Of a stretch of DNA of 64,000 nucleotides, positions 2,415 through 62,879 are shown in pieces (the first letter of the stretch is position 1; each line of letters opens with the position of its first letter). Source of the stretch: Hymenopus coronatus (Eukaryota > Arthropoda > Insecta > Mantodea > Hymenopodidae); contig CM060895.1 in assembly GCA_030762935.1 (NCBI GenBank), positions 32,044,501 to 32,108,500 of the forward strand. Reading direction: 5' to 3'. The translations under genes were made by a program, and so were the position numbers. The notes beneath the pieces were generated by a model. The model searched no databases and was not told the origin of the DNA. It saw nothing but the letters and a program-made list of their open reading frames with translations.

Positions 2415-3286
2415 TTTTTACTTTCTCTATACGCAATATGTACATAGTGTATAGAGAAGGTATTGCACTCCACCAAAAAATTCGATACCGAGATTTCACC
2501 GGAAATATATGTTTTAGGGTCCCATGTATCCAAAAAAAGTATTTTCAGAAAAAGGTCCGTGTGTGTGTGTCCGTGTGTCAGTATGTCCGTGTGTCCATGT
2601 GTCTGTGAACACGATAACTCAAAAACGAAAAGTCGCTAAAATACCAAACTTGGTATTTAAGTTTAGTATCCTCCAGGGATGCGACACGAAGATTTTGAGG
2701 AAAAAAAAACACCCCAAACTACCTTTACACGGACATTTTTTCGAACATTTTGATTTTCTAAAAAATGACTCTAATGATTTTGATTAAAATATCGAATATT
2801 AAAGATATTTACCTGACAAATAAAATGTATACTTTGAAGTTTCTGGGAATAGCCTCTGAAGACTACTTTATTCTGGGTCAATTATACGCAATTTTCCATA
2901 AATGATAAACCGTAAGAGATGGACAAAAGCTTACCACACAACAAATGTAGAGCACTTTAAAACACACAAACTATGTTATACACATTTTTTTCGTGGAGTT
3001 GATTGTTATTGAGATATTCCCTGTTTTGGTTTCAGCTTTAAAAAATTAATACTTTTCTCATACAGGACTTTGTGAACTCGTGTCCATACAAACAAAGGAA
3101 CTTCATTCACATAGCAACCAGCTTTTGACTATCACTTTAACCTATGGTACCCCCTTATTTCACTTCTAATAACAAGGAAGCAAGTAATAAGGCTATTTCT
3201 GCTAATTTTTTCTCGATTAGATTAAGTAAATACAGCAATTTATTGCAGAGATGTAGAGAAAGCTATGCGAATGGAACACATCAGAT
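2415..3286 (-). mobile_element. HLE, near complete
   Basis: Both ends are present: the R palindrome at 2420-2460 and the L end (GAACACATCAGA) at 3274-3285, each followed or preceded by a T run. The internal order is intact, including the GT microsatellite at 2556-2610. It truncates the hAT relic on its left. Confidence 0.9.
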
Positions 3287-7986: not shown

Positions 7987-9650
7987 AACGTGTTTCATTT
8001 AAAGAGTTTCTCTAACGTTTCTGCAAGCAAACTATTCATGCAAAGGAGTACTCTTTTTACTTTCTCCATACGCACTATGTACATAGTATATAGAGAAAGT
8101 ATTGCACTCCACTAAAAATTCGATACCGAGATTTCACCGGAGATATATGTTTTAGGGTCCCCAATATCCAAAAAAAGCATTTTCACAAAAAGGTCCGTGT
8201 GTTTGTGTGTGTGTCCGTGTATCTGTGAACACGATAACTCAAAAACGAAAAGTCGGTAAAATACCAAACTTGGTATTTAAGTTTAGTATCTTCCAGGGAT
8301 GCAACAGGAAGATTTTGAGAAAAATCCCCCCACCCCCAACTACCCTTTACATGGAACTTTTTTCGAAAATTTTGATTTTCTCAAAAATGGCTCTAACGAT
8401 TTTAATTAACATTTCGTATATTAAAGATATTTACCTGACAAATAAAATGTATATCTTGAATTTTCTGGGAATAGCCTCTGAAGAGAAGTTTATTCTGGAT
8501 GAATTTTACTAAATTTTGAATAACTGCTAAACCGTAAGAGATGGACAAAACGTTACTACACAAGAAATGTAGAGCACTTTAAAACACATAATTTATGTTA
8601 TATACATTTTTTTCGTGGAGTTTGTCGTTTTTGTGACATTCCTTATTTTTGGTTTCTGCTATGAAAAACGTATACTTTTCTCATACAGGAACTTGTCAAC
8701 TCCTATCCATATACACAAAGGAACTTCATTGACATAGCAACCAGCTTTTGACTATCACTTTAACCTACGGTTGTCCCTTATTTCGCTTCTACTTACGAGG
8801 AAGCGAGTAATAAGAGTATTTCTGCTAATTTTTTCTGATTAGCATAAAGTAAATAGAATTTTTAAGAATTATTTGTTGCAGGGATATGGAGAAAGTCATG
8901 TGAATGGTACACATCAGATTTTTTTCTTCAGCACGCTAGTTGAGATAAACATTAATAGAAATTGTCAGATTACTTGCTTTCTTGTAAGTAGAAAGGAAAT
9001 GAGGGCATACTCTAGACTAAAGCGATAGTCAAATCCTATAAAGGTTAGTCGTTATACGAAACAACTAAAGTAGCTAATATCTCGGAAACGGTTAACTTTA
9101 CAAAAATATGTATATATACATATATAAGTATCAGTAAATATGTATACATATGACATAAATTGTGTGTTTTAACGAGATCCACATTTTTGGTGTAGTCACT
9201 TTTAATCTATCTCTCACAGTTCACCAGTTATACAAACGTTTATCCAGAATAAAAAGATCTTCAGAGGATATTCCTCAATAATTCAAAAAATTCAAGGTAC
9301 ACATTTCGTTTCTAATAAAAATATCTTACACGTATGATATTTTAATCACAAATTTGAGAAATTTTGAAAACATTCCTGAAATCTTTGTGTTGCATCCTTG
9401 GAAGGTTCTGAACCTAAATCCAAGTTAGGTATTTAACAGACCCTTCGTTTTTTAGTTATGTTGTATATAGATACACACACAGAGGCACACACACTAACCC
9501 TTTTACTATTTATTTTCTTTTTTTTTTTGTATTCAGAGGTCTTCAAAATAATGTGTTTCCGGTAAAATCTCGCTATAAAATTTTTGTGTGGAATGCAATA
9601 CGTCTTTGTCTACTTAGTATGTTCATTCTACATATATGCTAGAGAAAGTA
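7987..9650 (+). mobile_element. HLE split by a second HLE
   Basis: The L part is 7987-8053, diverged. The copy is interrupted by an opposite HLE (8054-8921) and resumes at 8922 with CTTCAGCACGCTAGTTGAG, the expected next block. It then runs to an R end with TAGAGAAAGTAATG at about 9640-9650. Confidence 0.8.
8054..8921 (-). mobile_element. HLE nested inside another HLE
   Basis: Complete, 868 bases. The R palindrome is at about 8063-8095, the GT tract near 8195-8222, and the L end ACACATCAGA at 8910-8919. It lies inside the oligo-T run of the host HLE, with T runs on both sides. Confidence 0.92.
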
Positions 9651-10466: not shown

Positions 10467-11315
10467 TTTTTGCTCTCTCCATACATATTAGAGAAGGTAT
10501 TGTAATGCACACAAAATTTGATACCGAGATTTCACTGGCAATACATGTTTTAGGACCCCCTAAATCCAAAAAAAAGCATTTTTAGAAAAAGTCCGTGTGT
10601 GTGTGTATGTGTGTGACTGTGTGTATGTGTGTGTGTCATAGCTCAAAAATGACAATACCGTTAAATATCAAACTTGGAATTTAAGTTCAGTATCTTCCAA
10701 AGAATTGACATGAAGATTTTCAAGAAAATCCTTCCACTGCAAACTACTCTTTACATGGACTAATTTTCGAAAATTTTTATTTTCTTAAAAATGGTTATAA
10801 TGATTTTGATTAAACTCCCGTATATTAGATATATTTACATCCTAAATAAAATGTATATCTTACATTTTTCAGGGATTAACCTCTGAAGACTTCTTTATTC
10901 TGGATGAATTTTGCCAAATTTTGTTTAACTGCTAAACCGTAAGAAGTAGACAAAAACTTACTTCACAAAAAATGTAGATCTCGTCAAAGCTTACAATGTA
11001 TGTCCGTTACGTTTTTGTTGTGGAGGTAACCGTTTCCGAGACATTCCTTGTTATTATTTTCAACTGTAAAGTACATATACGCACTTTTGTAAGACAGGAA
11101 GTGTCCGTTTTTCTTTTGTTCTACTCAAGAAGCGATTTGCAATGATAATTGCATAACGATATCTATCTGTTCCTTTAGTTCTGTTCTACTTATCAGAAAC
11201 TAAGTAATAAGAACATTCTACTAATGTTTATCTCAATTAGCATAGTGTAGAACGAAGAATAATCTTTTGTAAGAAGTAAATAGAGAAAATCATGTGAACG
11301 TAACATATATTTATT
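10467..11315 (-). mobile_element. HLE with shortened terminal palindrome
   Basis: The R end is reduced to a partial palindrome (CTCTCCATACATATTAGAG). The GT tract is at 10596-10640 and the L end is diverged (AACGTAACATATATTT). About 850 bases. Confidence 0.82.
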
Positions 11316-19775: not shown

Positions 19776-20632
19776 TTTTACCCTCTCTATATGTACATAA
19801 TGCATAGAGAAGGTATTGCATTCCACCCAAAAATTCGATACCGATATTTCACCGAAAATACATATTTTGGGTCCCCCTGAATCCAAAAAAAAAAAAAACA
19901 TTTTCAGAAAAAGGTCTCTGTGTGTGTGTCTGTCTGTCTGTCTGTGGGTCTGTGGACAGCATTGCTCAAAAAGGAAAAGACCGTTAAAAACCAAACTTGG
20001 TATTTAAGTTTGGTATCTTCCAAGGATGCGACACGAAGATTTTCAAGAAAATCCCCGCACCCCCAACTAACCTTTCAATTTTCTAAAAAATGGCTCTATC
20101 GATTTTGATTAAAATATCGTATATTAAAGATATTTACTGGCAAATAAAATGTATATCTTCAATTGTTTGGGAACAGCCTCTGAAGACTAATTTATTCTGG
20201 ATGTCTTTTACGGGATTTTTCATAACTGCTAAACCGTAAGAGATGGAAAAAACTTACCACACAAAAAATGTAGAACACGTTAGCACACACAATTTGTGTT
20301 ATGTATTATATATTTATTGTTTATATATTTTATTTATATATTTCTTGTTTTTGGTTTCAGCTTTGAAAAACTTTACTTTTCTCATACAGGAATTTGTCAA
20401 CTTCTATCCATACAAACAAAGGAACTTCAGTCACATAGCAACCAGCTATTGACTATCACTTTAACCTATGGTACTCCCTTATTTCGCTACTACTTACAAG
20501 GAAGCAAGTAATAAGACTATTTCTGCTATTTTTTTCTCAAACAGCATGAAGTAAATAGAAGCATAAGCTTTTCAACAATACTTTGTTGCAGAAATGTAGA
20601 TAAAGTCATGTGAATGGAACACATAAGATTTT
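19776..20632 (-). mobile_element. HLE, near complete
   Basis: R end with the short palindrome CTCTATATGTACATAATGCATAGAG. The GT/CTGT tract is at 19918-19950 and the L end is GGAACACATAAGA. About 857 bases. Confidence 0.9.
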
Positions 20633-21782: not shown

Positions 21783-21862
21783 AATCTGATATTGCATTCA
21801 CATGATTTTCTCTAGCCCTATGTTTTATTTTAATAACTCTTCAAAAAACTGTTCTTTAAAAG

Positions 21863-21897
<35 letters not shown>

Positions 21898-21940
21898 TCT
21901 CCATATGCTAGTTCAGATAAACGTCTCAGAAAATCTTTCA
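21783..21940 (+). mobile_element. HLE left-end fragment with (CT)n
   Basis: L end, ACATGATTTTCTCTAG, then a (CT)13-14 tract at 21867-21894 and the ATGCTAGTTCAGATAAACG hairpin block. The rest is lost. Confidence 0.75.
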
Positions 21941-28785: not shown

Positions 28786-28878
28786 TATCTACGGTGAAAA
28801 CTGACATCGAATTTTTGGGTGGAATACAATACCTTCTCTATCCACTAAGTACATTGTATATGGGGATAGGGAAAATAA

Positions 28879-29668
28879 AATCTGATGTGTTCCATTCACA
28901 TGATTTTCTCTACATTTCTGGAACAAATTATTTTTGAAAGCTTATTCTTCTATCTACTTCATGCTAATTGAGATAAACATTAACAGAAATGCCCTTATCA
29001 CTTGCTTCCTTACAAGTAGAAGGGAAATAAGGAAATGCACTAGGGTAAAGTGATAGTCAAATCTTTTAAAAGCTGGTTGCTATGTGATTGAAATAAGTTT
29101 GTTGGATGACCAGGAGTTTACAAATTTCCGTAAGAGAAAAATTTATCTTAAAACTGAAACCAATAAGATGGAATACCTCGGAAACGATTAACTCCACGAA
29201 AGAAAGTGTGTGTTTTTACGAAATCTACACTTTTTGTGTATGTGTTTGCCCATTTCTTACAGTTTACCTTACGCAAAAGTCATCCAGAATGATAAGGTCT
29301 TCAGAGGCTACTCCTAGAAAATTTAAGATATGCATTTCATTTTACATAAATATCTTTAATATAGGATATTTTAATCAAACCATTAGAGCCTTTTTAAGAA
29401 AATCAAAAAGGGTTGAAAGGATTTTCTTGAATATCTTCCTGTCGAATCCTTGGAAGACACTACACTTAAAAACCACATTTGAAATTTTAGTCTTTTAGTT
29501 TTTGAGTTGTGCTATTCTCACACACTTTTTTCTAAAAAATTATTTTTCGGAGTCAGGGGACCTCAAAACATATATTGCCGGCGTAATCTGGACATTGCAT
29601 CTTTGGGTGAATATAATACCTGCTCCATCCACTATGTACATTATACATATGGACTACATAAAGTAAAA
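28879..29668 (+). mobile_element. HLE in tandem with the previous copy
   Basis: The L end follows the previous R end with one shared A run (GGGAAAATAAAATCTGATG). The microsatellite is almost absent. The R variant palindrome is TATGTACATTATACATATGG. About 790 bases. Confidence 0.87.
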
Positions 29669-30098: not shown

Positions 30099-30965
30099 GT
30101 TTTACTTTCTCTATACGCACTATGTACATAGGTATAGAGAAGGTATTGCACTCCACCCAAAAATTCGATACCGAGATTTCACCGGAAATATATGTTTTAG
30201 GGTTCTCTGTATCCAAAAAAAGTATTTTCAGAAAAAGGTTCGTGTGTGTGTGTGTCCGTGTGTCAGTGTGTCTGTAAACACGATAACTCAAAAACGAAAT
30301 CTCAGTAAAATACCAAATTTTAGTATCTTCCAGGGATGCGACACGAAGATTTTGAGAAAAATCCCCCCACCCCAAACTACCCTTTACATGGAACTTTTTT
30401 TGAAATTTTTTATTTTTTAAAAAAATAATCTAACAATTTTGATTAAAATATCATATATTAAAGATATTTACCTGACAAATAAAATGTATATTTTGAATTT
30501 TCTGGGAATAGCCTCTGAAGACTACTTTATTCTGGGTCAATTTTACGGAACTTTGCATAACTACTAAACCGTAAGAGATGGATAAAAACTTACCACACAA
30601 CATATGTAGAGCACTTTGAAACACACAATTTATGTTATATACTTTTTTCGTGAAGTTGATTGTTTTTGAGATAACCTTGTTTTTGGTTTCAGCTAGAAAA
30701 AACATATTTTTCTCATACAGGACTTTGTGAACTCGTGTCCATACACACAAAGGAACATCAGTCACATAGCAACCAGCTTTTGACCATCACTTTAACTTAT
30801 GGTACTCCCTTATTTCGCTTCTACTTACAAGGAAGCAAGCAATAAAGACTATTTCTGCTAATTTTTTCTCGATTAGCAGGAAGTAAATAGAAGCATAAAC
30901 TTTTTAACAATAATTTATTGCAGAGTTGTAGAGAAAGTTATGTGAATGGAACACATCAGATTTTT
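30099..30965 (-). mobile_element. HLE, near complete
   Basis: R end with asymmetric palindrome CACTATGTACATAGGTATAG, GT tract at 30241-30275, and a clean L end GGAACACATCAGATTTTT. The central palindrome is shortened by deletion of one arm. Confidence 0.92.
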
Positions 30966-34113: not shown

Positions 34114-34955
34114 ATACCTGATGTGTTCCATTCACATGACTTTCTCTACATCTCTGCAACAAATTATTGTTAGAAATTCTATGTTAATTCTATTTTCTTC
34201 ATGCTAATCGAGAAAAAATTAGCAGAAATAATATTATTACTTGCTTCGTAAAGTGATAGACAAAAGCTGGTTGCTATGTGACTGAAGCTCCTTTGTTTGT
34301 ATGGGCAGGAGTTGACAAATTCCTGTATGAGAAAAGTATAAGTTTTTCAAAGCTGAAACCAATATCAAGGGATATCTCAAAGACGATCAACTCCACGAAA
34401 AAAAAATGTATATTACATAAGTTGTGTTTTAACGTGCTCTACATTTTTTGTATTTCAAGTTTTTATCCATCTCTTACGGTTTAGTAGTTATGCAAAATTC
34501 CGTAAAAGTCATCTAGAATAAAGTAGTCTTCAGAGGTTATTCCTAGAAAATTCAAGATATACATTTTATTTGTCAGGTTCAAAATCGTTAGAGCCATTTT
34601 TGAAAAAAAAATCTAAATTTTAGAAAAAAGTTCCATGTAAAGGGTAGTTGGGGGTGGGGAGATTTTCTTGAAAATCTTCGTGTCGCATCCTTGGAAGATA
34701 CCGAACCTAAGTACCAAATTTGGTTTTTAACGGAATTTTTGTTTTTGAGCTATGCTGCCCACAGACACACACACACATACACACACAGACAGCTAGACAG
34801 ATACACACATGGACATTTTTCTAAAAATGCTTTTTTTGGATTCAGTGGGTCTCAAAACATGTATTTCCAGTGAAAACTGAGTATCGAATTTTTGGGTGCA
34901 TTACAATACCTTCACTATATACACACTATGTACATAGTACGTGTGGAGAAAGTAA
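34114..34955 (+). mobile_element. HLE, near complete
   Basis: L end CCTGATGTGTTCC, hairpin block CTAATCGAG...TTAGCAG, CA/GACA tract at 34764-34810. The R end has CACTATGTACATAGTACG, with the final GAGAAAGT followed by AACACAC instead of A run. Confidence 0.9.
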
Positions 34956-35914
34956 CACACAAAAACCCGGGCCCGAATACGCGGTCAACGGGAAGCAAAC
35001 CTTTCGAAAGCCAGTTACAGAGGAAAGCGCCACCTGACTCGATATCTGCTGGATATAGAAGGCAGAGAAAGTAGCAAACTGCAATATTTATACCAGCATT
35101 TAATAATTTGATCGGAAAGCATTTGAATATCCGCAACAGCCTGACAGAGAACACACATATAGTAATGCTGTTACATACTAAGTTAGAGAGGCCATTGTAA
35201 TTATTAATGTGTCATTATACTTGCCAGCGATCCACCACTTGCTACTCTAAGCTGAACCTCTGAGCAGCCTATCTACTAATTACTGGCTACCACAGTGGCT
35301 GTGACATGCTTCATCGAACAGACATTGAAATCGATTGTACTCCATAGACATCATGCACCATTAAAGGCAATTTGTCAATTATAATGGCATGGCCAAAGCT
35401 TTGCGGCTTAGCTCCAGATTAATAGCTCAGAAAATTGACTTAGGCTATCTTCGCAAGAATAGCAAATCCATCGTTCCAAAGTAAACAGGTTTGTTTTTAC
35501 ATTAGCAGGTATTTTATGAAACCATTAAAGTATTTAATTAGCTTTCTAGTCTCAATGGGAAACTTACCAATTTTATAGTCTTCAAAGTTGTTTATAAAGA
35601 CTGCCAGCATGACAAATTACCTATTTTATTCTAATCAAGGTTAATAAATGACAAAGTATTTAGTTGAACAGCATTTACAGCTCTTGTGAACAGTATTTTG
35701 CTACTTATAATTCCAATGCCTGCTTTAGAATTAATTAAACATAATAGAAGTTGTGGGTGATCAGGTCTGAGCAGAACAGGTTTCGCGGATCTTTGCCGCC
35801 CGGCGGTGCTGCTTGCTATGAGCGTGAATGGATGATAACACGTCCACAGTGTCACTACACTACGTTGTTTCTAACAAAGAAACAAAAATGAAAATATATT
35901 ATTCACATATATCA
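34956..35914. other. Unassigned DNA
   Basis: No recognised repeat. 34965-35060 and 35755-35860 are GC-richer. No supported gene. Confidence 0.45.
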
Positions 35915-36040
35915 AGCTAAAAGGTGTTGGAAGTGCCTCCCTTGGTTATTCAAGCATTTCTGGCATCTGTTTAGGAAATTCACCATTAAAACTTGTAAGT
36001 ATACTCTGAGAAATGGCAACAATTTCTTGACGAATGTTAT
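35915..36040 (-). pseudogene. C-terminal scrap of a DDE_3-type transposase
   Basis: The reverse strand reads IRQEIVAISQSILTSF and then, in other frames, VNFLNRCQKCLNNQGRHFQH followed by a stop. This resembles the last ~40 residues of the transposase type at 27.8-28.8 kb (alpha-helical tail ending in a G-x-H-F-x-H-L pattern). The rest is gone, cut by the HLE at 36043. Confidence 0.5.
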
Positions 36041-36042
36041 TA

Positions 36043-36855
36043 ATTTCTCTACCAAATTTTATGTACGTACATAGTAGGTAGAGAAGATGTTGTATTCCAC
36101 ACAAAAGATTCTATACCGAGATTTCACCGAAAATATATGTTCTGAGGATCCCTGAGTCAAGAAAATTAGAAAATGGCACGTGTGCCTGTTTATCTGTGTG
36201 TATGAGCGCCAGCATAACTCAAAAACGAACAGTTTGTTAAATACCAAACTGGTATTTAAGTTTAGTATCTTCCAAGTATGCGATACGTAGATTTGTAGGA
36301 AACATTCCCGCACCAAACTACTATTTACATACAAGAGTTTTTGAGATTTTTGATTTTCTCAAAAGTGGCTGTGATGATTTTGTTTAAAATACCGTATATT
36401 TAAATGGCAAATAAAATGTATATCTTGAATTTGTTGGGAATAGGCTCTAAAGTCCTCTTCATTCTGAATGAATTTGCATAAATGGTAAACCGTTACAGAT
36501 AGACAAAAGCTTACAAAAATGTGCATTTCCTATAATGTCATACACAACATTTATTGTAGAACTAAGCAGTTTTGAGATATTCCTTGTTATTGGTTTTAAA
36601 ATTTCAAATATTTGTATTTTTCTCAAATAGATAGTATTTATTCGTTTCGTTATTTGATTTTTTCATCCTGGTCATCAAAGAGAAGCGAATTACATACCCG
36701 GATTATAAACAATTTCGATATCGTTTCTCTTCAACAAGTAATGCGACTAATATTTTCGACGATGAGCACACAGTAGAGAAATGAATAGATTTGGAAGAAA
36801 AATTTGTTTGCGGAATACATTGAGAAAGTCATGTGAATGGAACATTTGATTTTTT
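36043..36855 (-). mobile_element. HLE
   Basis: R end with TATGTACGTACATAG in place of the usual palindrome. The GT tract is reduced (CTGTGTGTATGAGCG). L end GTCATGTGAATGGAACATTTG. About 810 bases. Confidence 0.83.
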
Positions 36856-37205: not shown

Positions 37206-37998
37206 GTAAAAATCTGATGTGTTTCATTCACATGACTTTCTCTATATCTCAGCAAATTGTTAGAAGGCTTATGCTTCTATTTACTTCATGCTAATCGAGA
37301 AAAAATTAGCAGAAATAGTCTTACTACTTGCTTCCTTGTAAGTAGAAGCTCCCATAGGTTAAAGTTGACAGGAGTTGACAAATTTTTGTGTGAGAAAAGT
37401 TAGTTCTTTAAAGCTGAAACCAAAAACAAGGAATACTTCAAAAACGACCAACTCCATGGAAAAAGTGTATATGACATAAATTATGTGTTTTAACGTTCTC
37501 TACATTTTTGTGTTGTAAGTTTTTATCTATCTCTTATACTCCAGCAGTTAGGCAAAATTCCATAAATTTCATCCAGAATAAAGCGAACTTAAGAGGCTAT
37601 CCCCGAAAAATTGAATACATACATTTTATTTGTCAAGAAAATATCTTTAATATACCATATTTTAATCAAAATCGTTACAGCCATTTTTGTGAAAATCAAA
37701 ATCTTCGAAAAAAGTTCCATGTAAAGGGTAGTTTGGGTTGGGGGATTTTTCTCAAAATCTTCATGTCGTATCCCTGGAAGATAATAAACTTAAATACTAA
37801 GTTTGGTATTTTACCGACTGTTCGTTTTTGAGTTATCGTGTTCACAGACACACGGACCTTTTTCTGAAAATGCTTTTTTTTTTGGATACAGGGGACCCTA
37901 AAACGTATATTTTCGGTGAAAACTCGGTGTTGAATTTTTGGGTGGAGTGTAATACATTCTCTATACACTATGTACATAGTACGTATAGAGAAAGTAAA
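37206..37998 (+). mobile_element. HLE, near complete
   Basis: L end TCTGATGTGTTTC, hairpin, central palindrome (TAAATACTAAGTTTGGTATTT), microsatellite reduced to ACAGACACACGG. The R end is the perfect CACTATGTACATAGT class followed by GAGAAAGTAAAAA. Confidence 0.92.
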
Positions 37999-38808
37999 AA
38001 GGTGTCGTTAAACATATCTAAAAAAATACAATTATTAGTTTTCTCCAAATTGACAGTTCTTTCATTATTTAACTAAAAGGTGTCCATATTTAATGCTATA
38101 CCTTAATAGCAAAACTAATATTTTACATCTGGGATCATTTGATGAAAGTAGAACATCTATCTAAAACAAAGCTCAAATAAGAGTGCCCTTAATTACTGTT
38201 TCATCGGGGTTTGTCTTTGGGTGTTCATTTTGTAATTCGCTAAGTTTGATTACAGAGAGAATTTGAAGGTGATGTGAGTCTCACTGACCCCGATGATAGG
38301 TTAATGACGAGATGGTGGAGGTGACCTAAATCTTAACGCAGGATCCGAACCATCAAGGATGTCTGGCGCAGTTCCCAAATTACCACATTTGGCAGAGGCG
38401 GAGGCTCAATGAAGGCAACCTAAAAGTAATCAACGTGTTGGAGAAGCGCGACTACGTACGTTGGATAAGACCGCAGAGTTTTGCAGCTGATAGTTTCACA
38501 CAGATAGATGATCAATCCAAAAGGAATAGAAAACCCTCGTCCCATTTTCTCGAAATACTATCTTTCCTGCTGATGGAAACCTAGTTTTGTCACTCTATAC
38601 GTTTTGTAATTCTTTCCAGGTCTCTCCTTAACAGATAAACCGATTTCTCGGGTTTGTGTGAAATTGCGATTTACGAAGACGTACCTGGCTTTAAGCAGAG
38701 TAAATCAAAGACTTAATTTTCTGAATGTAACACACTAAAGCGAGGTGAATTTCTGTAAGACCAAATTGCATACGCTGCTTCAGTAGTACTAGCGGGCGTT
38801 AAACTCTG
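37999..38808. other. Unassigned DNA, possible old SINE at its end
   Basis: About 800 bases. The last bases (GCGGGCGTTAAAC, 38796-38808) match the SINE-D terminus, but no head was found upstream. 38330-38540 is GC-richer with a short open forward frame and no recognised domain. Confidence 0.4.
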
Positions 38809-39671
38809 ATGTGTTCCATTCACATGACTTTCTCTACATCTCTGCAACAAATTATTGTTAAAAAGATTATGCCTCTATTTACTTCATGCTACTGGAGAAC
38901 AAATTAGCAGAAATAGTTTTATTTCTTGCTTCCTTGTATGCAGAAGCGAAATAAGGGAATACCATAGGTTAAAGTGATAGTCAAAAACTGGTTGGTATGT
39001 GACTGAAGTTCCTTTGTTTCTATGGATAGGAATTAACAAATTCCTGTATGAGAAAAATACAAGTTTTTAAAATCTGAAATCAAACAAACAGGGATATCTA
39101 AAAAAACGATCAACTCCACGAAAAAGATATATATAAAATAAATTGTGTGTTTTAATATGCTCTACGTTTTCTGTTTGGTAAGTTTTTGTCCATCTCTTAC
39201 GGTTTAGTAGTTATGAAAAATTCCGTAAAATTGATCCAGAGAAAAGTAGTCTTCAGAGGCTATTCCCAGAAAATTCAAGATATACATTTTATTTGTCAGG
39301 TAAATATTTTAATATACGATATTTTAATCAAAATCGTTAGAACCATTTTAATAAAATAAAAATGTTCGAAAAAAGTTCCATGTAAAGGGTAGTTGGGGGT
39401 GGGTGATTTTCTTGAAAATCTTCGTGTCGCATCCTTGGAAGGTACCAAACTTAAATACCAAGTTTGGCATTCAACGGTCTTTTCGTTTTGGAGATATGCT
39501 GTCCACAGACACACAGACACACACGGACCTTTTTCCAAAAATGCTTTTTTGGATTCAGGGGGACCCAAAACATGAATTTCCGGTGAAACCTCAGTATCGA
39601 ATTTTTAGGTGCAATTCAATGCCTTCCCTATCCCTATGTACATTGTACATATTGGACTAGAGAAAGTAAAA
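38809..39671 (+). mobile_element. HLE, near complete
   Basis: L end TCTGATGTGTTCC abuts the GGGCGTTAAAC terminus. The R variant end is CCTATGTACATTGTACATAT, then TAGAGAAAGTAAAA. About 860 bases. Confidence 0.92.
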
Positions 39672-40972: not shown

Positions 40973-41834
40973 TTTTTACTTTCTCTATACGAACTATGTA
41001 TATAGTGTATAGAGAAGGTATTGCATTGCACCCATAAACTCGATTCTGAGATTTCACCGGAAATACATGTTTTGAGACTCACTGAATATAAAAAACGCAT
41101 TTTTAGAAAAATGTCCGTGTGTGTGTCTGTCTGTGTGTCTGTGGGCAGAATAGCTCAAAAACGAAAATACCTTTAAAGCCCAAACTTGGTATTTAAGTTT
41201 GGTATCTTCCAAGGATGCGAAACGAAGATTTTCAAGAAAATTCCCCCACCCCAAACTACCCTTTTCATGGACAAACTTTTCAAAATTTTGATTTTCTTGA
41301 AAATGGCTCTAACGATTTTGATTAAAATATCCTATATTAAAGATACTTACCTGACAGATAAAATGTATATTTGGAATTTTCTGGGAATAGCCCCTGAACA
41401 CTATTTTATTCTGGATGCATTTTATGGAATTGTGCATAGCTGCTAAACCGAAGATATGGACAAAACCTTACTGTACAGAAAATGTAACTCGCGATAAAAT
41501 ACACAATTTATGTCATATACATTTTTTTCGTGGAGTTGATCATTTTTAAAATATTATTGGTTTTTCGTTTTAGCTTTGAAAAACTTATACTTTTCTCATA
41601 CAGGAATTTCTTAACTCCTGTCCATAAAAACAAAGGAACTTCAGTTACATAGCAACCAGCTTTTGGCTATCATTTTAACCTATAGAACTATCTCATTTCT
41701 CTTCTGCTTACAAGGAAGCAAGTAATAAGTCTATTTCTGCTAATTAGCATGAAGTAAATAGAAGCATAACCTTTTTAACTACAATTTGTTGCAGAGATAT
41801 AGAGAAAGTCATGTGAATGGAGCACATCATATTT
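40973..41834 (-). mobile_element. HLE, near complete
   Basis: R palindrome ACTATGTATATAGTGTATAG, GT/CTGT tract at 41116-41142, L end GGAGCACATCATATTTT. About 860 bases. Confidence 0.92.
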
Positions 41835-42137: not shown

Positions 42138-42963
42138 TTACTTTCTCTACACTATTATGTGCATAGTGTATAGAGAAGGTATTCTACTCAACCCAAAAAT
42201 TTGATACCGAGATAAAATATATGTTTTTAGGTTCTACTGTATAAAAAAAAAAGAAAAGAAAAAAAACATTTTCACAAAAAGGTCCGTGAGGTGTCCGTGT
42301 GTCCGTATGTCTGTGAACACGATAACTGAAAAACGAAAAGTCGGTAAAATACCAAACTTGGTATTTAAGTTTAGTATCTTCCAGGGATGCGACACGAAGA
42401 TTTTGAGAGAAATGCCCCCAACCCAAGCTACCCTTTACATGGAGCTTTTTTTTTTTTGAAAATGTTGGTATTTTCAAAAATGGCTATAACGATTTTGACT
42501 AAAATATCGTATATTAAAGATATTTACACGAAAAATAAAATGTTTATCTTCAATTTTCTGGGAATAGCCTCTGAAGACTACTTTATTCTGGATGAATTTT
42601 GCGGAATTTTGCATAACTGCTAAACCGTAAGAGATGGACGAAAACTTACCCACCAAAAATGTAGAGCACGTTAAAACACACAATTTATTTTATACATTTT
42701 TGTGGAGTTGATCGTTTTTTTAGATATTCCCTGCTTTTGATTTCTGCTTTGACTGTCCATACAAATAAAGGAACTTCAGTCACCTAGCAACCAGCTTCTA
42801 TCACTTTAAACTTATTTCGCTTCGAAATAAAAGGAAGAAAGAAATGACTATTACTGTTATTTTTTCCTCGATTAGCATGAAGTAAATAGAAGCATAAGCT
42901 TTTAAAAAATAATTTGGTGCAGAGATGTGGAGAAAGTCATGTGAATGGAATGCATCAAAGTTT
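42138..42963 (-). mobile_element. HLE, near complete
   Basis: R end CACTATTATGTGCATAGTG, an A-rich expansion at 42244-42266, central palindrome ACCAAACTTGGT, and a diverged L end GGAATGCATCAAAG. Confidence 0.9.
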
Positions 42964-43338: not shown

Positions 43339-44212
43339 AAATCTGATGTGTGCCATTCACATGACTTTCTTTATATCCCTGCAACAAATTATTCTTAAAA
43401 AGCTTATACTTCTATTTACTTTACGCTAATTAGAAAAAATGAGCAGAAATAATCTTATTACGTGCTTCCTTGTAAGTAGAAGCGAAATAAGGGACTACCA
43501 TAGGTTAAATTGATAGTCAAAAGCTCGTTGCTATGTCAATGAAGTTTCTTTGTTTGTATGTATGGATAGGAGTTGACAAGTTCCTGAATGAGAAACGTAT
43601 ACATTTTTCATAGCAGAAAGCAAAAACAAGGAATGTCTCAAAAACGATGACCTCCACGAAAAAATATATATATAACATACATTGTGTGTTTTAACGTGTT
43701 CTAAATTTTTCGTGGAGCAAGTTTTTGTCCATCTCTTACGGTTTTGCAGTTACTCAAAATTCAGTAAAATTCATCCAGAAAAAACTACTCCTCAGAGGCT
43801 ATTCCCAGAAAATTCAAGATATACATTTTATTTGTCAGGTAAATATCTTTAGTATACGAAATTTTAATCAAAATCGTTACAGCCATTTTTGAGAAAATCA
43901 AAAATTTCGAAATAAGTTCCATGTAAAGGTAGTTGGGAATAGGGGTTTTTTCTCAAAATCTTCGTGTCGCATCCTTGGAACATACTTAACTTAAATACCA
44001 GGTTTGGTATTTTACCGACTTTTCGTTTTTGAGTTATCGTGTTCACAGACACACGGACACACACACACGGACCTTTTTGCGAAAATACTATTTTTGGATA
44101 TTGGGGACCCTAAAACATATATTTCCGGTGAAATCTCGGTATCGAAATTTTGGGTGGAGTGCAATACCTTCCCTATACACTATGTACATTGTGCGTATAG
44201 AGAAAGTAAAAA
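43339..44212 (+). mobile_element. HLE, complete
   Basis: Sharp L end TCTGATGTGTGCC after an A run and sharp R end (CACTATGTACATTGTGCG, TAGAGAAAGTAAAAA). 874 bases with all internal blocks, useful as a reference copy. Confidence 0.94.
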
Positions 44213-46056: not shown

Positions 46057-47825
46057 ATCTGATGTGTTACACTCACACGACTTTCTCTAGCTGTTCTACA
46101 AACTTCTTACATAAGATTGTTCTTCTTTTTGCAACTTGCTAATCGAGGTACGCATTAGCACAATGTTCTTATTACTTAGTTCCTTATAAGTAGGAAGAAA
46201 TTAAGGGAATACACTAGGCTAAACCAATAGTCAAATGTTTTAAAAGCTGTCGTTACGCGATTGTCATTACAAATCACTTATTTTCTTGGTCAGGAGTAGA
46301 ACAAAAGAAAAACGGACACTCCCGCCTGAGAAAAGTATAAGTACTTCACAACTGAAACTAATAACAATGAGTAACTCGAAAACGGTAAGCTCAACGAGAA
46401 AAATGTATATGACATAACTTGTGTATTTTAAAAAAATAACCTACATTTTTTGTTTAGTAAGTTTTTGTCTATCTCTTACGGTTTACCAGTTATGCCAAAT
46501 TAAGCAAAATTCATCCAGAATAAACAGGCCTTCAGAAGCTATTCCCAGAAAATTCAAGATACACATTTTATTTGTGAGGTAAATATCTTTAATGTAAGAT
46601 ATTTTAATCAAAATCGTTAGAGCCATTTTTTAGAAAATCAAAATTTTCGAAAAAAATTCCATGTAAAGGGTAGTTTGGGGTGGGGGGATATTTCTCAAAA
46701 TCTTCGTGTCGCATCCCTGGAAGATACTAAACTTAAATACCAAGTTTGGTATTTTAGCCACTATTTGTTTTTGAGTTAACGTGTTTATATACACACGGAC
46801 ACACACACACACGGACCTTTTTACTTTCTCTATACTCACCATATACATAGTGTATAGAGAATGTATTGCACTCCACCAAAAAATTCGATACCGAGATTTC
46901 ACCGGAAATATGTTTTAGGGTCCCCTGTATCCAAAAAAAAGTATTTTCAGAAAAAGATCCGTGTGTGTGTCCGAGCGACAGTGTGTCCGTGTGCTGTGAA
47001 CACGATAACTCAAAAACGAAAAGTCGGTAAAATACCAAACTTGGTATTTAAGTTTAGTATCTTCCAAGGATGCGACACGAAGATTTTGAGAAAAATCCCC
47101 CCACCCCAAAAAACCCTTTACATGAAACATTTTTCGAAAAATTTGATTTTCTAAAAAATGGCTCAAACGATTTTGATTAAAATATCGTATATTAATTTTA
47201 TTTACTTGACAAATAAAATGTATATTTTGAATTTTCTTTGGTATAGCCTCTGAAGACTACTCTATTCTGGATAAATTTTTCATAACCACTAAACCGTAAG
47301 AGATGGACAAAAACTTAACCCACAAAACATGTAGAGCACGTTAAAACACACAATTTATGGTATTTGCATTTTTTTCGTGGAGTTGATCGTTTTTGAGATA
47401 TTCCTTTTTCTAGGTTTCAGCTTTGAAAAACTTATACTTTCTCATACAGAAATTTGTCAACTCCTGTCTATAAAAACAAAGGAACATCAGTCACATAGCA
47501 ACCAGCTTTTGGCTTTCACTTTAACCTATGGTACTCTCTTATTTCGCTTCTACTTACAATAAAGCAAGAAATAAGACTATTTCTGCTAATTTTTCTCGAT
47601 TAGCATGAAATAAATAAAAGATAAGCTTATTAACAATAATAATTTACAGAGATATAGAGAAAGTCACGTGAATGGAACACATCAGATTTTTCTGAAAATG
47701 CTTTTTATGGATACATGGGGTCCTAAAACATGTATTTCCGGTGAAATCTCGGTATAGAATTTTTGGGTGGAATACAATACTTCTCTATCCCTATTACATT
47801 GCACATACAGGGCTAGAGAAAGTAA
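46056..47825 (+). mobile_element. HLE split by a nested HLE
   Basis: The L end directly follows the previous R end (tandem junction AGAGAAAGTAAAAATCTGATG). The interior runs to CACACGGACC at 46816, is interrupted, and resumes at 47692 with CTGAAAATGCTTTTTATGG. The R end is GGCTAGAGAAAGTAAAAA. The two halves join without missing bases. Confidence 0.92.
46819..47691 (-). mobile_element. HLE nested in the CCTTTTTCTG site of another HLE
   Basis: Complete. R starts ACTTTCTC after TTTTT and L ends CATCAGA before TTTTT. The uninterrupted sites in other copies carry a single TTTTT, so the insertion shows the exact termini and leaves an oligo-T on each side. Confidence 0.95.
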
Positions 47826-49130
47826 AAATTATTGTCAATATTCTATATTAAAACGATATTTTGCTTAACAAAACTTTTTATATAAAAGTAGATTATTCCA
47901 CTTTGATGACACTGATGTATGTCCTGTGTAGACAATAAATCTAATATACTAGTTAGAGAGAGGCCTTTAAAATTAGTTCAAATTCAGTTAAGTATATTGA
48001 TTTGGGTGATTAAACATAACTTTATAAACGGAGTTCATAAAATTCTTCTTTAAACTTTACTCTAACAAAATGGATGACGAATTTAGCAGATTTACCATAG
48101 TCGGGTTAAGCTTTCCATCTTCTCTTAATTTCTAAACGTTCTGTCTAGGGAACACGAGAACGGAGAATTATTTGCTTGCGATAAGAAACATTTTCTGTCA
48201 TCTGAGTGTTGTTTAAGCCTGAAACAGATCTGCTTACAGACCAAACAGAATATATTATTTATTATAACATAGCAATATCATAAAAAAGAAGCTAGAAAAA
48301 GTAAGGAACAGACGCCTCGGGAATATGGATTAACTCCCCATACGCAAAACAAAACTTCTGAAGCTGCAATATCAGATTATTCCCCTCCTTCCTGCGCATC
48401 TTTTCAACGAAAGTTATGTGTTTTTATTGGAGAAGAAAAACAAAACGTGGAACTGAAGCGAGGACGACTCTATCTTTTTATTTGTTTCTTCTTTTTTTTC
48501 CAGTGCTCATTTCTCAAAGCTGCAGCTTCCCACTCTCATCTTCACGATCCCTTTCTCTCTGGCACAGAGATTCGCAATTTGACGCACACTCGCTCGCCCT
48601 ATTATTTCAGCGGCCAAAGTTTTATTGCCCGTAATATTAATATACTGCATTATACCGAGCCATATGTCGTGCGTTTTATGGCGGCTTCGTGGAGTAGACG
48701 GAGAGGAAACGACGGCCAATAAAACACGAGGGAATGAAATGAATATAAATCTATTACCTATTTCAGCCGTCAAACACATAATCATTCCTTTCCTGCTGTC
48801 AAGATGCGCAGTAGTGCAAATATTTTCAAAGCCAAACTTGTTTACAACTCAGCTCATCGCTGAAAATACATCTCCGAAGAATACAAAAGTCGTTTTTGCA
48901 CGATAGCGCGTAAAATTGAATTTTACGCAGTGCTGCCAGTGCATAAAGGACAGTTTTTAACATCTAAACGTAAGAACAGCAAGTTTTAACTTCATGCACT
49001 ATCATAAAACTGATTTTAGGTAACAAATATCTTACAGCATGTTCCGCTACATTTTTATTTCCGCTGGACTATAACTGAATGTGCAAAATCTTCTAAATAA
49101 GCCATGGTTTTATTTTGTCACCTTAATTCA
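47826..49130. other. Unassigned DNA, longest non-repeat stretch but one
   Basis: About 1.3 kb without the window's repeat families. 48480-48740 is less AT-rich, with short overlapping frames on both strands, none recognised. Confidence 0.5.
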
Positions 49131-56655: not shown

Positions 56656-57232
56656 CATTACAAATATAATTTTAGACAATTTTCCCCATTTAATCTCTCC
56701 TTGAGTTAAAGGTAAGTTGCTTGAAAATCTAGGAACAGACAACAGAATGCGCTAGCACACTATTTACGAGTTTTTGTTTGTGTTGACCTTGTATTTAATT
56801 TACCTGCTCCGGGTGTAATATCTGTATTGCCGTGCTTGAAGAAACACCTCGTGGATGGCGGCGTGTCATAAAATCTCAACTACAGGATTGTCATAAAGGG
56901 GCTTATGTTCAATTCCCTCCGGTCCTAAATTCCTCTGTTTATAAAATGTGGAAGAGCAGGAAAAAGTTGTTTTCTACGGTCCTGTGAGGGTCATTATTTT
57001 TCTATGGCCTCCCCAAAGTTTGCCCCTGTCCACTTCCTGCAGAGTAGGCGACCCCGAAAGCAAATTTATCTTTATAGCCACAGCAACCAGCTCTTGATTT
57101 GTTTGTTGAGGTCCTTGCTCCAGTTCCTTGCGTCATGCATTTCCTAGAGTCAATCTAATGATGCCATCTTTCACTGCGGAGTAGCACTTCTGAGCCAGAA
57201 TCTCACGTAGCTTTCTCCTCCCATTCTTAAAA
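56656..57232. other. Unassigned DNA
   Basis: 56840-57200 is GC-richer. No recognised repeat or supported gene. Confidence 0.4.
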
Positions 57233-57233
57233 A

Positions 57234-57587
57234 ATCCGATGTGTTCCATTCACATGACTTTCTCTATATCTCTGCAATACATTATTTTTAAAAAGCTTAT
57301 GCTTCTATTTACTTCTGCTAATCGAGAAAAAATTAGCAAAAATAGTCTTATTTCTTGCTTCCTTGTAAATAGAAGCGAAATAAGGGAGTACCACCGGTTA
57401 AAGTGATAGTCAAAAGCTGGTTGCTATGTGACTGAAGTTCCTTTGTTTGTATGGACACGAGTTCACAAAGTCCTGTATGAGAAAAATGTAAGTTGTTATA
57501 GCTTAAACCAAAAACAATCAACTCCACGAAAAAAATGTATACACATAAATTGTGTGTTTTAATGTGCTCTACATTTTTGTGTGGTAA

Positions 57588-57624
<37 letters not shown>

Positions 57625-58110
57625 CCTCTTATGGTTTAGCACTTATGCAAAATTCCGTAAAATTCACTCAGCATAAAGTAGTCTTCAGAGGCTATTCCCA
57701 GAAAATTCAAAATATACATTTTATTTGTCAGGTAAATATCTTTAATATACGATATTTTAATCAAAATCGTTAGAGCCATTTTATAGAAAATCAAAATTTT
57801 CGGAAAAACTTCCATGTAAAGGGTAGTTTGGAGTGGGGGGATTTTTCTCAATATCTTCGTGTCGCATCCCTGGAAGATACTAAACTTAAATACCAAGTTT
57901 GGTATTTTAACGACTTTTCGTTTTTGAGTTATTGTGTTCACAGACACACGGACACACTGACACACACGGACCTTTTTCTGAAAATACCTTTTTTGGATAC
58001 AGGGGACCCTAAAACATATATTTCCAGTGAAATCTCGGTATCGAATTTTTTGGTGGAGTGCAATACCTTCTCTATACACTATGTACATAGTGAGTATAGA
58101 GAAAGTAAAA
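57234..58110 (+). mobile_element. HLE, reference-quality complete copy
   Basis: Landmarks: L end TCCGATGTGTTCC at 57236. ACTTTCTCTA at 57257-57266 is inverted as TAGAGAAAGT at 58097-58106, about 840 bases apart and asymmetric to the ends. A hairpin TGCTAAT/ATTAGCA lies at 57316-57338. A (CT)n run at 57591-57620 is specific to this copy. The central near-palindrome AAATACCAAGTTTGGTATTT is at 57888-57907, the CA tract at 57942-57970, and the perfect terminal palindrome CACTATGTACATAGTG at 58077-58092. No Rep, helicase or other long coding region. The longest frame (reverse 57636-58088, 150 codons) is open but unlike any protein I know. Best explained as a non-autonomous Helitron2/Helentron-type element; a MITE with worn ends is the main alternative. 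Confidence 0.93.
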
Positions 58111-58178
58111 AACTACTCTGAGATATGCATGTCCCTTTAATTGCAAAATCTTCAATAATTACTAATAAGCTTATTCTT

Positions 58179-58424
58179 GCCCGCCTGGGTAGTGTGTGGT
58201 AGCGTGTCTGCCTCACATTCAAAAGGTCGTGAGTTCGAATCTCGCTTAAGGTGAGTTTGCTCGGATAAGGTTTTTTTCGGTGTTTTCCCTTATCGTGAGA
58301 AGACGAATGTCGAGTAACTAAGCTCCATGGACCTCGAGATCATTTGAGCATCATTTCACCAATTTCATTCATCGTCCGATATGACCAATCAGGTTAAAGG
58401 ACGTTAAACTACAAAAAAAAAAAA
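58179..58424 (+). mobile_element. SINE-A with oligo-A end
   Basis: Head GCCCGCCTGGGTAGTGTG, B box GTGAGTTCGAATCTC, body GTTTGCTCGGATAAGG, tail CGTCCGATATGACCAATCAG, A run at 58412-58424. It splits the L side of an HLE (GCTTATTCTT before, CTTCTATCTACTTC after). Confidence 0.9.
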
Positions 58425-59154: not shown

Positions 59155-59488
59155 TTAAGGCTTTTGATTAAAATACATATATGAAGGATATTTACATGAC
59201 AAATAAAATATATTTCTTGAACTTTCTGGGAATAGCCTCTGAAGTCCTCTTCAATCTGGATGAATTTTGCATAACTAAAAAAAAAACAATAGAAGATAGA
59301 CAGAAACTATTACACGAAACTGTAGAGTTAAAAAACAAACTTTATATCTTAAACATTTTTTTGCGTGGAGTTTCCGATATATTCCTTGTTTTTGGTTTCA
59401 GTTTTAAAATGGTTCAGCTTTGCTCATACGGAAATTTATCGACTCCTGTCAATGCACAGAAATGGATTCAATCCCATAGCAACCAGTT
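59155..59488 (-). mobile_element. HLE interior fragment
   Basis: TTTTGATTAAAATACATATATG through GGGAATAGCCTCTGAAG to CCCATAGCAACCAGTTTTAG. Both ends missing; it abuts the R end of the next copy. Confidence 0.78.
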
Positions 59489-60380
59489 TTAGTTTCTCTA
59501 AATGTACTAAGTACATAGTGCATAGGCAAAATATTGCATTCCATCAGTACCCAGATTTCACCTGACATACACGTTTTAGGGTCCCCTGTATCAAAAGAAA
59601 ACAGTTTTAGAAAAAGGTCCTTGTATGAATGACAGTGTTTACATGTATGGATGTCGTGTGTGTGAATACGATGACTCAAAAACGAAAAGTCGGTAAAGTA
59701 CCAAACTTGGTATTTAAGTTCAATAACCTCAAAGGATATGACACGAAGATTTTCAGGAAAATATCCGCACCCCCAACTACCTTTTATGTGGAACATTTTT
59801 TGACATTTTTGATTTTCTTAAAAGTGGCTCAAATGTTTTTAATTGTAATACCGTATACTAAAGATAGCTATATGACAAAATAATGTATCTCCTGAACTTT
59901 CTGGGAATAGCCTTTGAAATCCTCTTTCTTCTGGATGAAATTTGCTGATTTTAACATAACTGGTAATCTGTAATAGATTCACAAGAATTTACTACACAAA
60001 AAACACAGATCTCATTAAAACACAATTTATGTACATACCTACAGTTATTTTTTCTTAAGTTGACCATTTCCGAGACATTCCCTGTTATTGGTTTCAGTTT
60101 TAAAATACTTAAACCATTCTTATATTGTATTGCATTTGTTAACTTCTGGAAATACAAACAAACGGACTTCAACCACATAGCAACCAGCTTTTAAAAGATT
60201 TGAGCATCATTTTAGCCTAGTGTACTCCTTTATTTCTCTTCGGATTACAAGGAAGCAAATAATAAAGAAAATTTCTGCTAATGTTTATCTCGATTAGAAT
60301 GAAACAGATGAATAAGGTTTTTAAAAATAGTTTGTTTTAGAGATGAAGAGAAGGTCAATGAATGGAACAATTCAGACTTT
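59489..60380 (-). mobile_element. HLE, near complete
   Basis: R end TACTAAGTACATAGTGCATAG, weak GT tract (GTCGTGTGTGTG), central palindrome ACCAAACTTGGTATTT, L end GTCAATGAATGGAACAATTC. Confidence 0.88.
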
Positions 60381-61043: not shown

Positions 61044-62879
61044 TTATTTCTCAACATAATCTCCAGAAAGGCTAATTAATACATTTGTTATATCGGTGTT
61101 CTAATTTAATTAAACCATCTCTGTAGTGTGATTTATCAAGGTCCTCAAAATAGCTGTTTGCCGCATCAATGACCGCCTCCTTACTATGAAATCTTCATCC
61201 TCCAAGAAATTTCTTGAGGTTTGGGAACAGGTGGTAGTCACTGGGTGGTGAATCTAGCGAATAGAGTGGATGTTCAAGCAATTCGAACTTTAATTCGCAC
61301 ATTTTTACTTTCTCTATACGCACTATGTACATAGTGTATAGAGAAGGTATTGCACTCCACCAAAAAATTCGATACCGAGATTTCACCGGAAATATATGTT
61401 TTAGGGTCCCCTGTATCCAAAAAAATTATTTTCAGAAAAAGGTCGGTGTGTGTGTCCGTGTGTCCGTGTGTCTGTAAACACGATAACTCAAAAGCGAAAA
61501 GTTGGTAAAATACCAAACTTCCAGGGATGCGATATGAAGCTTTTGAGAAAAATCCCTCCACCCCAAACTACTCTTTACATGGAACTTTTTCGAAAATTTT
61601 GATTTTCTAAAAAATGGTTCTAACGATTTTGATTAAAATATCCTATATTAAAGATACTTACCTGACAAATAAAATGTATGTTTTGAATTTTCTGGGAATA
61701 GCATCTGAAGACTTCTTTATTCTGGGTCAATTTTACGGAATGTTGCATAACTGTTAAGAGATGGACAAGAACTTACCACACAACAAATGTAGAGCACTTT
61801 AAAACACACAATTTATGTTATTCGCATTTTTTTGGTGGAGTTGATTTTTTTTAGATATTCTTTGGTTTCAGCTATGAAAAATATACTTTTATCACACAGG
61901 ACTTTGTGAACTCGTGTCCATACAAACAAAGGAACTTCAGTCACATAGAAACCAGCTTTTGACTATCACTTTAACCTATGGTACTCCCTTTTTCGCTACT
62001 TACAAGTAAGCATGTAATAAGACCATTTCTGCTATTTTTTTCTCGATTAGCAGGAAGTAAATAGAAGCATAAGCTTTTTAACAATAATTTATTGCAGAGT
62101 TGTAGAGAAAGTCATGTGAATGGAACACATCAGATGTTTCCGTTGCAATGACTGAACGATGGGCTGGAGCATTGTAATGATGAAACAATATTTTTTGGCC
62201 AAATGAAGACTTTTTCTTTTCACCTCATCACTCAAACGTTGCAGTAAGCTTGCATAGTAATCAGCGGTGATACTTATACCCTTTTCCAAATAATCAATAA
62301 AAATAATTCCTTGTCCATTCCAGAAAACACTCGCTGATAAAATTGACTTTGCTTTTTTGGGAGTTGGTTCACCTGGTGCAATCCATTACTTTGACTGTGA
62401 TTTACTTTCTGGGGGGTAATTATGTATCCAAGTTTCATCCATGGTAATAAGCTGTCTCAAAAATGTACTGGACATTTTAAGGTAGAGCTCTACATTCTTA
62501 ACAGAAACAATTCTTAACTTTTGATCAGGTGTCAACAAACGCGGCACCCATCCTGTACAAACCTTGAGAGAGCCCAAAACATTACTTAAAATATTACCTG
62601 TACGTTCTTTTGATATGTTTAGAGCCTTTGCTATCTCAAACAACTAGACGAACATTTTTTCAATTATCTCTGGAGTTGTCACTTCTACAGGGCGTCCAGA
62701 GCGAGGCTCATGACTAGTTCTCGTACGTCCCATTTTAAACTCTGCAACCCACCTTTTAATCATTGAATATAAAGGGGAAGAATCTTGTAAGGTACTGTCC
62801 ATCCCCTCCTGATTTGTTTAGGTGTCAAGCCTTTCAAATGGAAGTATTTAATCACTGCTCGTTTTTCCAAATCCTCCAT
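61044..62879 (-). pseudogene. Mariner transposase pseudogene (HLE inserted)
   Basis: The start ATG is at 62879 with MEDLEKRAVIKYFHLKG. Several stops follow, then FEIAKALNISKERTGNIL (helix-turn-helix), WVPRLLTPDQK, and MDETWIHNYPPESK with the first catalytic aspartate. A frameshift leads to FHHYNAPAHRS, where the second catalytic aspartate of the usual HDN motif is tyrosine. An HLE of about 830 bases then interrupts. Coding resumes NVCELKFELLEHPLYSLD, PSDYHLFPNLKKFLGG, and ends SGDYVEK with a stop at 61044. Clearly inactive before or after the HLE insertion. Confidence 0.9.
61303..62135 (-). mobile_element. HLE nested in mariner
   Basis: R end after TTTTT with CACTATGTACATAGTG. GT tract at 61446-61475. 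One arm of the central palindrome is deleted. L end GGAACACATCAGA at 62122-62134. The flanking mariner codons join across it, fixing the element's limits in a host whose original sequence can be inferred. Confidence 0.95.

Follow-up and report, generated by a model that had tools for sequence, protein, structure and literature searches.

HLE, the commonest repeat of the 64 kb stretch of DNA analysed here (the window), is a small non-coding mobile element. Very probably it is a HINE, a non-autonomous rolling-circle element for which Helentrons in the same genome supply the machinery in trans. HLE is non-coding, carries subterminal repeats and a 3' palindrome with one of the repeats upstream of it, and shares its ends with a partner; in that partner, S follows RG in the Rep motif, and an Exo_endo_phos_2 domain lies downstream of the helicase in frameshifted copies. 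A sequence-only reading had described the repeat as Helentron/Helitron2-like and mobilised by a Rep-helicase encoded elsewhere. The HINE end plan and the presence of Helentrons with HLE-type ends bear out that description, but the polarity has to be turned round. What was a structural guess has become a tested assignment through the partner-type element in the same genome.

Abundance and anatomy of HLE

A profile built from 15 near-complete copies returned 77 stretches in the window, of which 4 are self-matches of the palindrome, and the remaining 73 matches account for 55.5% of the bases. We identified 17 of the 73 as full-length copies, with 5.2-19.1% divergence from the HLE consensus. The sequence-only reading had estimated about 55 copies and fragments, so that the multiplicity was right and the number differs. 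BLAST of the focal copy against the window gave 125 pieces, including the copy itself and palindrome and microsatellite matches. The window contains the decamer ACTTTCTCTA/TAGAGAAAGT 40 times, where 0.19 occurrences would be expected, and with the 17 full-length copies this establishes the real repeat with fixed ends that had been proposed. The full-length copies, all called with the profile, are as follows.

2416..3285, plus strand: HLE, full length
8056..8918, plus strand: HLE, full length
10470..11307, plus strand: HLE, full length, diverged
19777..20628, plus strand: HLE, full length
28881..29662, minus strand: HLE, full length, head-to-tail with a 5' piece at 28782-28879
30101..30960, plus strand: HLE, full length
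34117..34956, minus strand: HLE, full length
36040..36845, plus strand: HLE, full length, diverged
37213..37999, minus strand: HLE, full length
38805..39670, minus strand: HLE, full length; 3' flank GTTT, not TTTT
40975..41830, plus strand: HLE, full length
42138..42958, plus strand: HLE, full length
43342..44211, minus strand: HLE, full length
46819..47686, plus strand: HLE, full length, nested in an older minus-strand HLE (46058-46822 and 47678-47826), also from the empty-site comparison
57235..58110, minus strand: HLE focal copy, full length (profile positions 1-874, E 1.6e-279)
59488..60376, plus strand: HLE, full length, diverged
61303..62134, plus strand: HLE, full length; 5' TTTT retained, 3' flank TGTTT

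Across the genome (3,126,739,099 bases in 384 contigs), the exact 38-base HLE 3' end was found 19,791 times (control 0) and the exact 18-base 5' end 59,096 times (control 9); recognisable ends of this putative HINE thus number in the tens of thousands in a genome of 3.1 Gb. The 18-base 5' end has a density of 18.9 per Mb genome-wide versus 7 occurrences in the 64-kb window, which is therefore about 6 times denser in HLE than the genome average; the exact 38-base 3' end has 0 occurrences in the window. At Helitron-centred loci, HLE made up 16,739 of 200,000 bases, and extrapolation from these loci and the 18-mer density gives, as a rough guess, a genome share near 8-10%.

The focal copy reads 5' to 3' on the minus strand, with its 5' end at 58110. 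The polarity implied by the sequence-only reading, with its L end first, is thus reversed, its R end corresponding to 5' and its L end to 3'. From 5' to 3', HLE consists of a T-run, TTTT-ACTTTCTCTA inside a palindrome, a CA/GT interior, TAGAGAAAGT-CATGTGAATGGAACACATCAGA and a second T-run, and once turned round it therefore matches the HINE order of PMC4067079. The following features were located in the focal copy.

58107..58112, minus strand: T-run before the 5' end (A on the plus strand), from the sequence
58097..58106, minus strand: 5' subterminal inverted repeat ACTTTCTCTA, from the sequence and the decamer count
58064..58107, minus strand: 5' palindrome, which holds the 5' subterminal repeat (self-match of 831-874 to 58107-58064)
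about 57940..57972, no strand: CA/GT microsatellite, from the sequence
57590..57629, no strand: CT microsatellite, absent from the consensus, with similar CT tracts at 17503-17563 and 21860-21902 (self-comparison)
57257..57266, minus strand: 3' subterminal inverted repeat TAGAGAAAGT (ACTTTCTCTA on the plus strand), from the sequence and the decamer count
57239..57255, minus strand: 3' terminal hairpin, stem ATGTG/CACAT with a 7-nt loop, from the sequence
57229..57234, minus strand: T-run after the 3' end CAGA (A on the plus strand), from the sequence

The end architecture was obtained from 54 3' ends and, once 4 self-matches of the palindrome had been taken off a total of 56, 52 5' ends in the window and in 20 further loci (L009-L028), diverged copies included; most of these ends could be aligned, older copies less well. 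The inverted decamer is asymmetric, lying about 4 nt from one end and 22 nt from the other, with the 3' subterminal repeat ending 22 nt from the HLE 3' end, and the outermost bases of HLE form no inverted repeat. T was the commonest base at positions -5 to -1, before ACTTTC, in 29-39 of 44 anchored 5' ends, which is an underestimate because 4 rows are palindrome self-matches and 4 were anchored a few bases too far upstream. The 5' palindrome folds at -20.4 kcal/mol (RNA parameters), and its outer stem shows hardly any variation in the alignment (A1), so that covariation is uninformative there. The hairpin ATGTG-TTCCATT-CACAT was recognisable in most 3' ends, its stem ending 4-5 nt from the terminus. 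This is the most important hairpin of the element, and the sequence-only reading had passed over it at the L terminus; the internal L hairpin that it named instead is also present, as CTTCTATTTAC...GTAAATAGAAG, enclosing TGCTAAT...ATTAGCA. Its asymmetric inverted decamer, palindrome at R, CA/GT tract and oligo-A/T flanks were likewise all found in the focal copy, at 57257-57266 and 58097-58106, about 58064-58107, about 57940-57972 and, as A-runs, on both sides, respectively.

We also agree that HLE has no coding capacity: open stretches of the consensus reach at most 75 aa, and substitutions are near-flat by codon position (10.1/10.1/8.3%). The focal copy has a 150-aa ORF with 0 Pfam matches at E 1, and a coding role for it was ruled out on this result and the flat substitution pattern.

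Two other elements of the window were classified by eye. A Tc1/mariner-type element at 472-1661 has a 194-aa open frame (814-1398) and inverted ends CTGTAAAGAAAGTAGTGG...CCACTACTTTATTTACAG, and a tRNA-derived, SINE-like stretch at 58176-58300 adjoins the focal HLE; ARAGORN made no call there.

Insertion sites and orientation

A run of at least 3 T was identified within the first ten bases past the 3' end in all 22 full copies considered, 17 from the window and 5 from other loci, and the insertion strand is fixed, with T on the HLE top strand. Insertion into the 3' T-run of an older copy therefore yields head-to-tail neighbours, and insertion into the internal GGACCTTTTTC site yields the opposite orientation, as at 46819-47686. 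Close HLE neighbours comprised 5 head-to-tail pairs (gaps of 2-9 bp), 1 head-to-head pair (28 bp) and 1 tail-to-tail pair (21 bp).

Empty sites were compared for several insertions. For the nested copy at 46819-47686, the empty site has 5 T and the occupied site 5+5, and for an HLE inside the Helentron on contig C16, compared with its counterpart on C11, the empty site has A7 and the occupied site A6+A6. An HLE inserted in a canonical Helitron of family B (locus L024) has six best paralogues with T-runs of varying length, and the copy at 37213, whose paralogues are only 72-80% alike, gave TTT versus TTTTT on both sides. Where the empty site could be read clearly, as at the nested copy and in the C16 Helentron, the net gain is about 5 T, either Ts of the element or a duplication within T-runs. 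Copies 61303 and 38805 have TGTTT and GTTT, respectively, as 3' flank and yet retain TTTT at the 5' end, which suggests that the Ts on the 5' side belong to HLE. A HINE would insert into T-rich sites and leave the target unmodified; as the targets of HLE are themselves T-runs, about 5 T may be duplicated inside them at each insertion.

Helentrons of the same genome and the ends they share with HLE

We searched the genome with the PF14214 profile and obtained 112 matches. Rep motif 2 was examined at 12 low-scoring places, and S follows RG in 10 of the 12 (e.g. RVEFQMRGSPHEHMFFWL), a residue given as diagnostic of Helentron in PMC4067079; 2 of the 12 places (L033 and L034) are of Helitron type. 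The Rep of these Helentrons, in the same genome as HLE, carries GSPH. A Rep query taken from one of the loci (L038) had 55 genome matches, and the closest named protein outside the genome is the Helentron-type P0001 of Diabrotica virgifera, which carries RVEFQMRGSPHEH and aligns to 96% of the query at 44% identity. On C16, the order of domains across three pieces (L053, L041 and L054) is a weak Herpes_teg_N-like stretch, DUF6570 (50.8 bits), Helitron_like_N (38 bits) and PIF1 (52.2 bits). Exo_endo_phos_2 (PF14529) was identified in the uninterrupted copy on C11 at 34.7 bits, against a cut-off of 27.4, downstream of helicase pieces, and Pfam returned no endonuclease match for the interrupted endonuclease pieces of C16. 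The N-terminal stretch (L053:4909-5490) scored 17.1 bits to Herpes_teg_N, below the cut-off; OTU-like proteases are reported in Helentrons (PMC4067079). Neither an intact Helentron nor one continuous Rep-helicase-endonuclease frame was seen among these frameshifted copies, the one on C16 being also interrupted by HLE and the others having been read in part.

Helentron 3' windows were tried at four loci, and those on C16 and C11 held a terminus; the predicted windows on C10 and C13 had no Helentron end, consisting of HLE DNA and other DNA, respectively. The C16 terminus, GTAGAGAAAGTTATGTGAATGGAACACATCAGATTTTT (L054:3605-3642), scores 17.7 bits to the HLE profile; the sequence on its upstream side is not HLE, and on its downstream side there are pieces of old HLE copies. 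The C11 terminus (L060:493-530) is decayed, at 6.4 bits, and stands at the same place. The alignment of the two loci (85.6% identity) stops where the T-run ends, and their last 60 bases are identical at 54 of 60 positions. Against the HLE consensus, 32 of the last 35 bases are identical in C16 and 28 of 35 in C11, and over the last 60 bases, ungapped, the counts are 36 and 32. The 3' end of the C16 Helentron carries the stretch GTAGAGAAAGT exactly as the HLE consensus does, and in C11 this stretch has one change.

According to PMC4067079, a HINE and its partner form one family when they share 11 bp or more, and 80% over the last 60 bp defines a subfamily. On this comparison of ends, HLE and the Helentrons read belong to the same family and to different subfamilies, because 36/60 (C16) and 32/60 (C11) are below 80%. 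The Helentrons read are relatives and not the direct source of HLE, the 5' block on C10 being 76% identical to it. The sequence-only reading had proposed a search for a Rep/helicase element with the same last 60 bases; a Helentron with the HLE terminus was indeed found, but only 36 of the 60 bases agree, and HLE shares only about 34 bp with the 3' side of the Helentrons read.

Upstream of the coding region, a same-strand HLE-like 5' block was identified at 4 of 4 loci (L055-L058), all picked because a separate match to a remnant lay there. The 5' end proper is present in 3 of the 4 blocks, and the one at L057 begins at profile position 126. The identity of the C10 block to HLE was measured over positions 1-872 (76%), and C16 keeps a remnant only, beside an unrelated minus-strand HLE (L053:3303-4158). 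On C11, which was not picked by the remnant, the junction of block and Helentron lies at C11:16906984-16907366 (82%), and since the same locus has the 3' terminus, both the 5' block and the terminus are seen at one locus. The Helentron loci on C10 and C19 start in the T-runs of older HLE copies. These two loci are colinear for about 950 bp (74.7%), through an HLE-like 5' end, a decayed terminator and Helentron DNA; in both, the internal terminator keeps its 3' hairpin, and its subterminal repeat has been destroyed differently in each. In a search with the junction (L055:960-1321), 40 of 3,956 candidates were scored, and in 38 of the 40, counting the query locus, the alignment continues beyond the terminator for 100 bp or more. 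Among the other 2, one (C5:64127482) stops exactly at the terminator (query 1-236), and one stops 41 bases after it. The 38 matches do not amount to 38 independent events, because long matches are favoured among the best-scoring hits and many of the 38 may be copies of a single duplicated block close to contig ends. Five junction matches directly adjoin Helentron 5' matches (C10, C11:16.9M, C13:93.6M, C18:132.0M and C19:95.1M).

HLE is very dense, an unrelated minus-strand copy does lie upstream on C16, and the four upstream loci were chosen because the remnant had matched there, so one might suppose that HLE copies happen to adjoin each coding region and that the Helentron ends are a product of chance. 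We regard this as highly improbable in view of the colinearity of C10 and C19 through the decayed terminator, the scored places that align past the junction, five of which adjoin Helentron 5' matches, and the 3' terminus, which stands at the same place in C16 and C11 although the flanks are different.

Movement by canonical Helitrons can be considered because these are abundant: the 20 best PF14214 places (L009-L028) all fall into three DNA families, Helitron A, B and C, with 7, 11 and 2 loci, respectively. Rep motif 2 could be read at 11 of these 20 places; the residue following RG is L in 10 of them and M in 1, and never S. The 3' end CAGCTAG was found in 6 of 7 end rows of Helitron A and 8 of 11 of Helitron B, and families A and B are therefore canonical Helitrons; their 5' start lies in a (TA)n-rich tract, and they have no end sequence in common with HLE, which sits in T-runs. 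The HLE ends lack the canonical 5' TC, 3' CTRR and insertion between A and T, and no HLE copy with a CTAG 3' end between A and T was seen. Canonical Helitrons were ruled out as the partner on these differing ends of A and B, and that families A, B or C move HLE is exceedingly unlikely. An origin of HLE as a MITE moved by a DDE transposase would find some encouragement in the Tc1/mariner-type ORF of the window, since DDE elements exist here, and in the gain of a few Ts per insertion, which is readable as a target duplication. It was rejected on end structure, however, as there are no terminal inverted repeats at the very ends and the decamer is placed asymmetrically. Further, the 5' TTTT is kept in copies 61303 and 38805 where the 3' flank is not TTTT, the mariner of the window has its own inverted ends, unlike HLE, and Helentrons with HLE-type ends exist in the same genome; we consider the MITE reading very unlikely.

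Helitrons A and B are about 5.2 kb long, with copies within each about 82-95% alike, and the longest open stretch across the 20 loci is 368 aa.

Proposed mechanism, known relatives and possible origin of HLE

As a HINE, HLE would be nicked by Rep at the 5' T-run and palindrome, the helicase would unwind one strand, the 3' subterminal repeat and hairpin would act as terminator, and the endonuclease would open T-runs for the insertion of HLE. Apart from the terminator mosaic described below, the mechanism of HLE is unremarkable.

Several known systems resemble HLE. HINE-Mo and Helentron-Mo of the mite Metaseiulus occidentalis share with HLE the palindromic subterminal repeats, 3' palindrome, T-rich target and microsatellites, the last in some copies of the mite HINEs, and Helentron-Mo has the Rep-PIF1-endonuclease plan of the HLE partner (PMC4067079). 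In the mite HINEs, the distance of the subterminal repeat from the terminus is 2-4 nt on the 5' side and about 38-60 bp on the 3' side, whereas the HLE 3' repeat is 22 nt from its end, and the palindrome near the 3' end is 8-35 bp (PMC4067079). HLE also differs from them in that a simple internal deletion in the Helentrons read would not produce it, only about 34 bp of their 3' side being common to both. DINE-1 of Drosophila is, like HLE, very abundant, non-coding and Helentron-dependent, with subterminal repeats and a stem-loop near the 3' end (PMC4067079; PMC2374699); it has an extra inverted repeat and a core sequence that are absent from mite HINEs (PMC4067079), and we liken it to HLE by description. 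Cg_HINE of the Pacific oyster has a 5' subTIR with a complementary inverted repeat, a microsatellite, a 3' subTIR with a palindrome, and oligo-T sites, as HLE does, and no target duplication was found for it (PMC7492417); the HLE consensus, unlike Cg_HINE, is without a central satellite array. The Helitron2-type FoHeli of Fusarium oxysporum (PMC5148889), also likened by description, has asymmetric inverted repeats and hairpins, and its 3' inverted repeat lies about 20-40 bp upstream of the end, a range that includes the 22 nt of HLE; its insertion site is TNAT/T, versus the T-run of HLE.

HLE is homologous to the Helentron 5' block over its whole length, up to the decayed internal terminator. 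By the junction and terminus data, the Helentron is therefore composed of an HLE, coding DNA and a second terminator, and the whole-length homology implies that HLE arose by early termination on a Helentron or that the Helentron arose from HLE by reading past the terminator. Probably, one of the two gave rise to the other, either through use of the internal terminator or through its being skipped; the decayed internal terminator in C10 and C19 shows only its present non-use there. End-bypass is a known Helitron route to downstream DNA (PMC5148889, citing Grabundzija and others). We tentatively raise the possibility, which we hold to be rather less likely than not, that the Helentron was assembled from a HINE, with an HLE that lost its terminator passing by end-bypass into Rep-helicase-endonuclease DNA and stopping at a second HLE-type terminator. 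If so, a non-coding parasite would have turned into an autonomous element. Among the titles and abstract openings listed on terminator bypass, HINEs or Helitron2 in arthropods, Helentrons in spiders, Helentron abundance and subtelomeric Helitrons, none dealt directly with HLE or with a HINE turning into a Helentron. For the interconversion of non-autonomous and autonomous rolling-circle elements, the terminator mosaic is a natural test case, and it bears on the origin of HINEs.

Many of the junction matches lie near contig ends. Among the 40 scored (of 3,956), 26 were located 142-270 kb from an end, one per end, with 16 at left ends, all on the minus strand, and 10 at right ends, all on the plus strand, so that all 26 point at the contig end; of the remaining matches, 9 are internal and 5 are on contigs of a length not seen. 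A Helentron-derived block seems to be common to many chromosome ends. In the minus-strand HLE at L053:3303-4158, an inverted 3' end has become joined to the 5' palindrome (GGTACACATCAGATTTTTTTT), and both ends of this copy therefore look like 3' ends; the similar stretches ATGTACATGG and ATGTGAATGG suggest that a strand switch between them made this copy.

The telomere repeat TTAGG was identified as 89,136 exact 25-mers against 34 in the control, with the first listed at base 1230 of C1. TTAGG is the usual arthropod telomere motif, and the host of HLE is likely to be an arthropod on the basis of these repeats.
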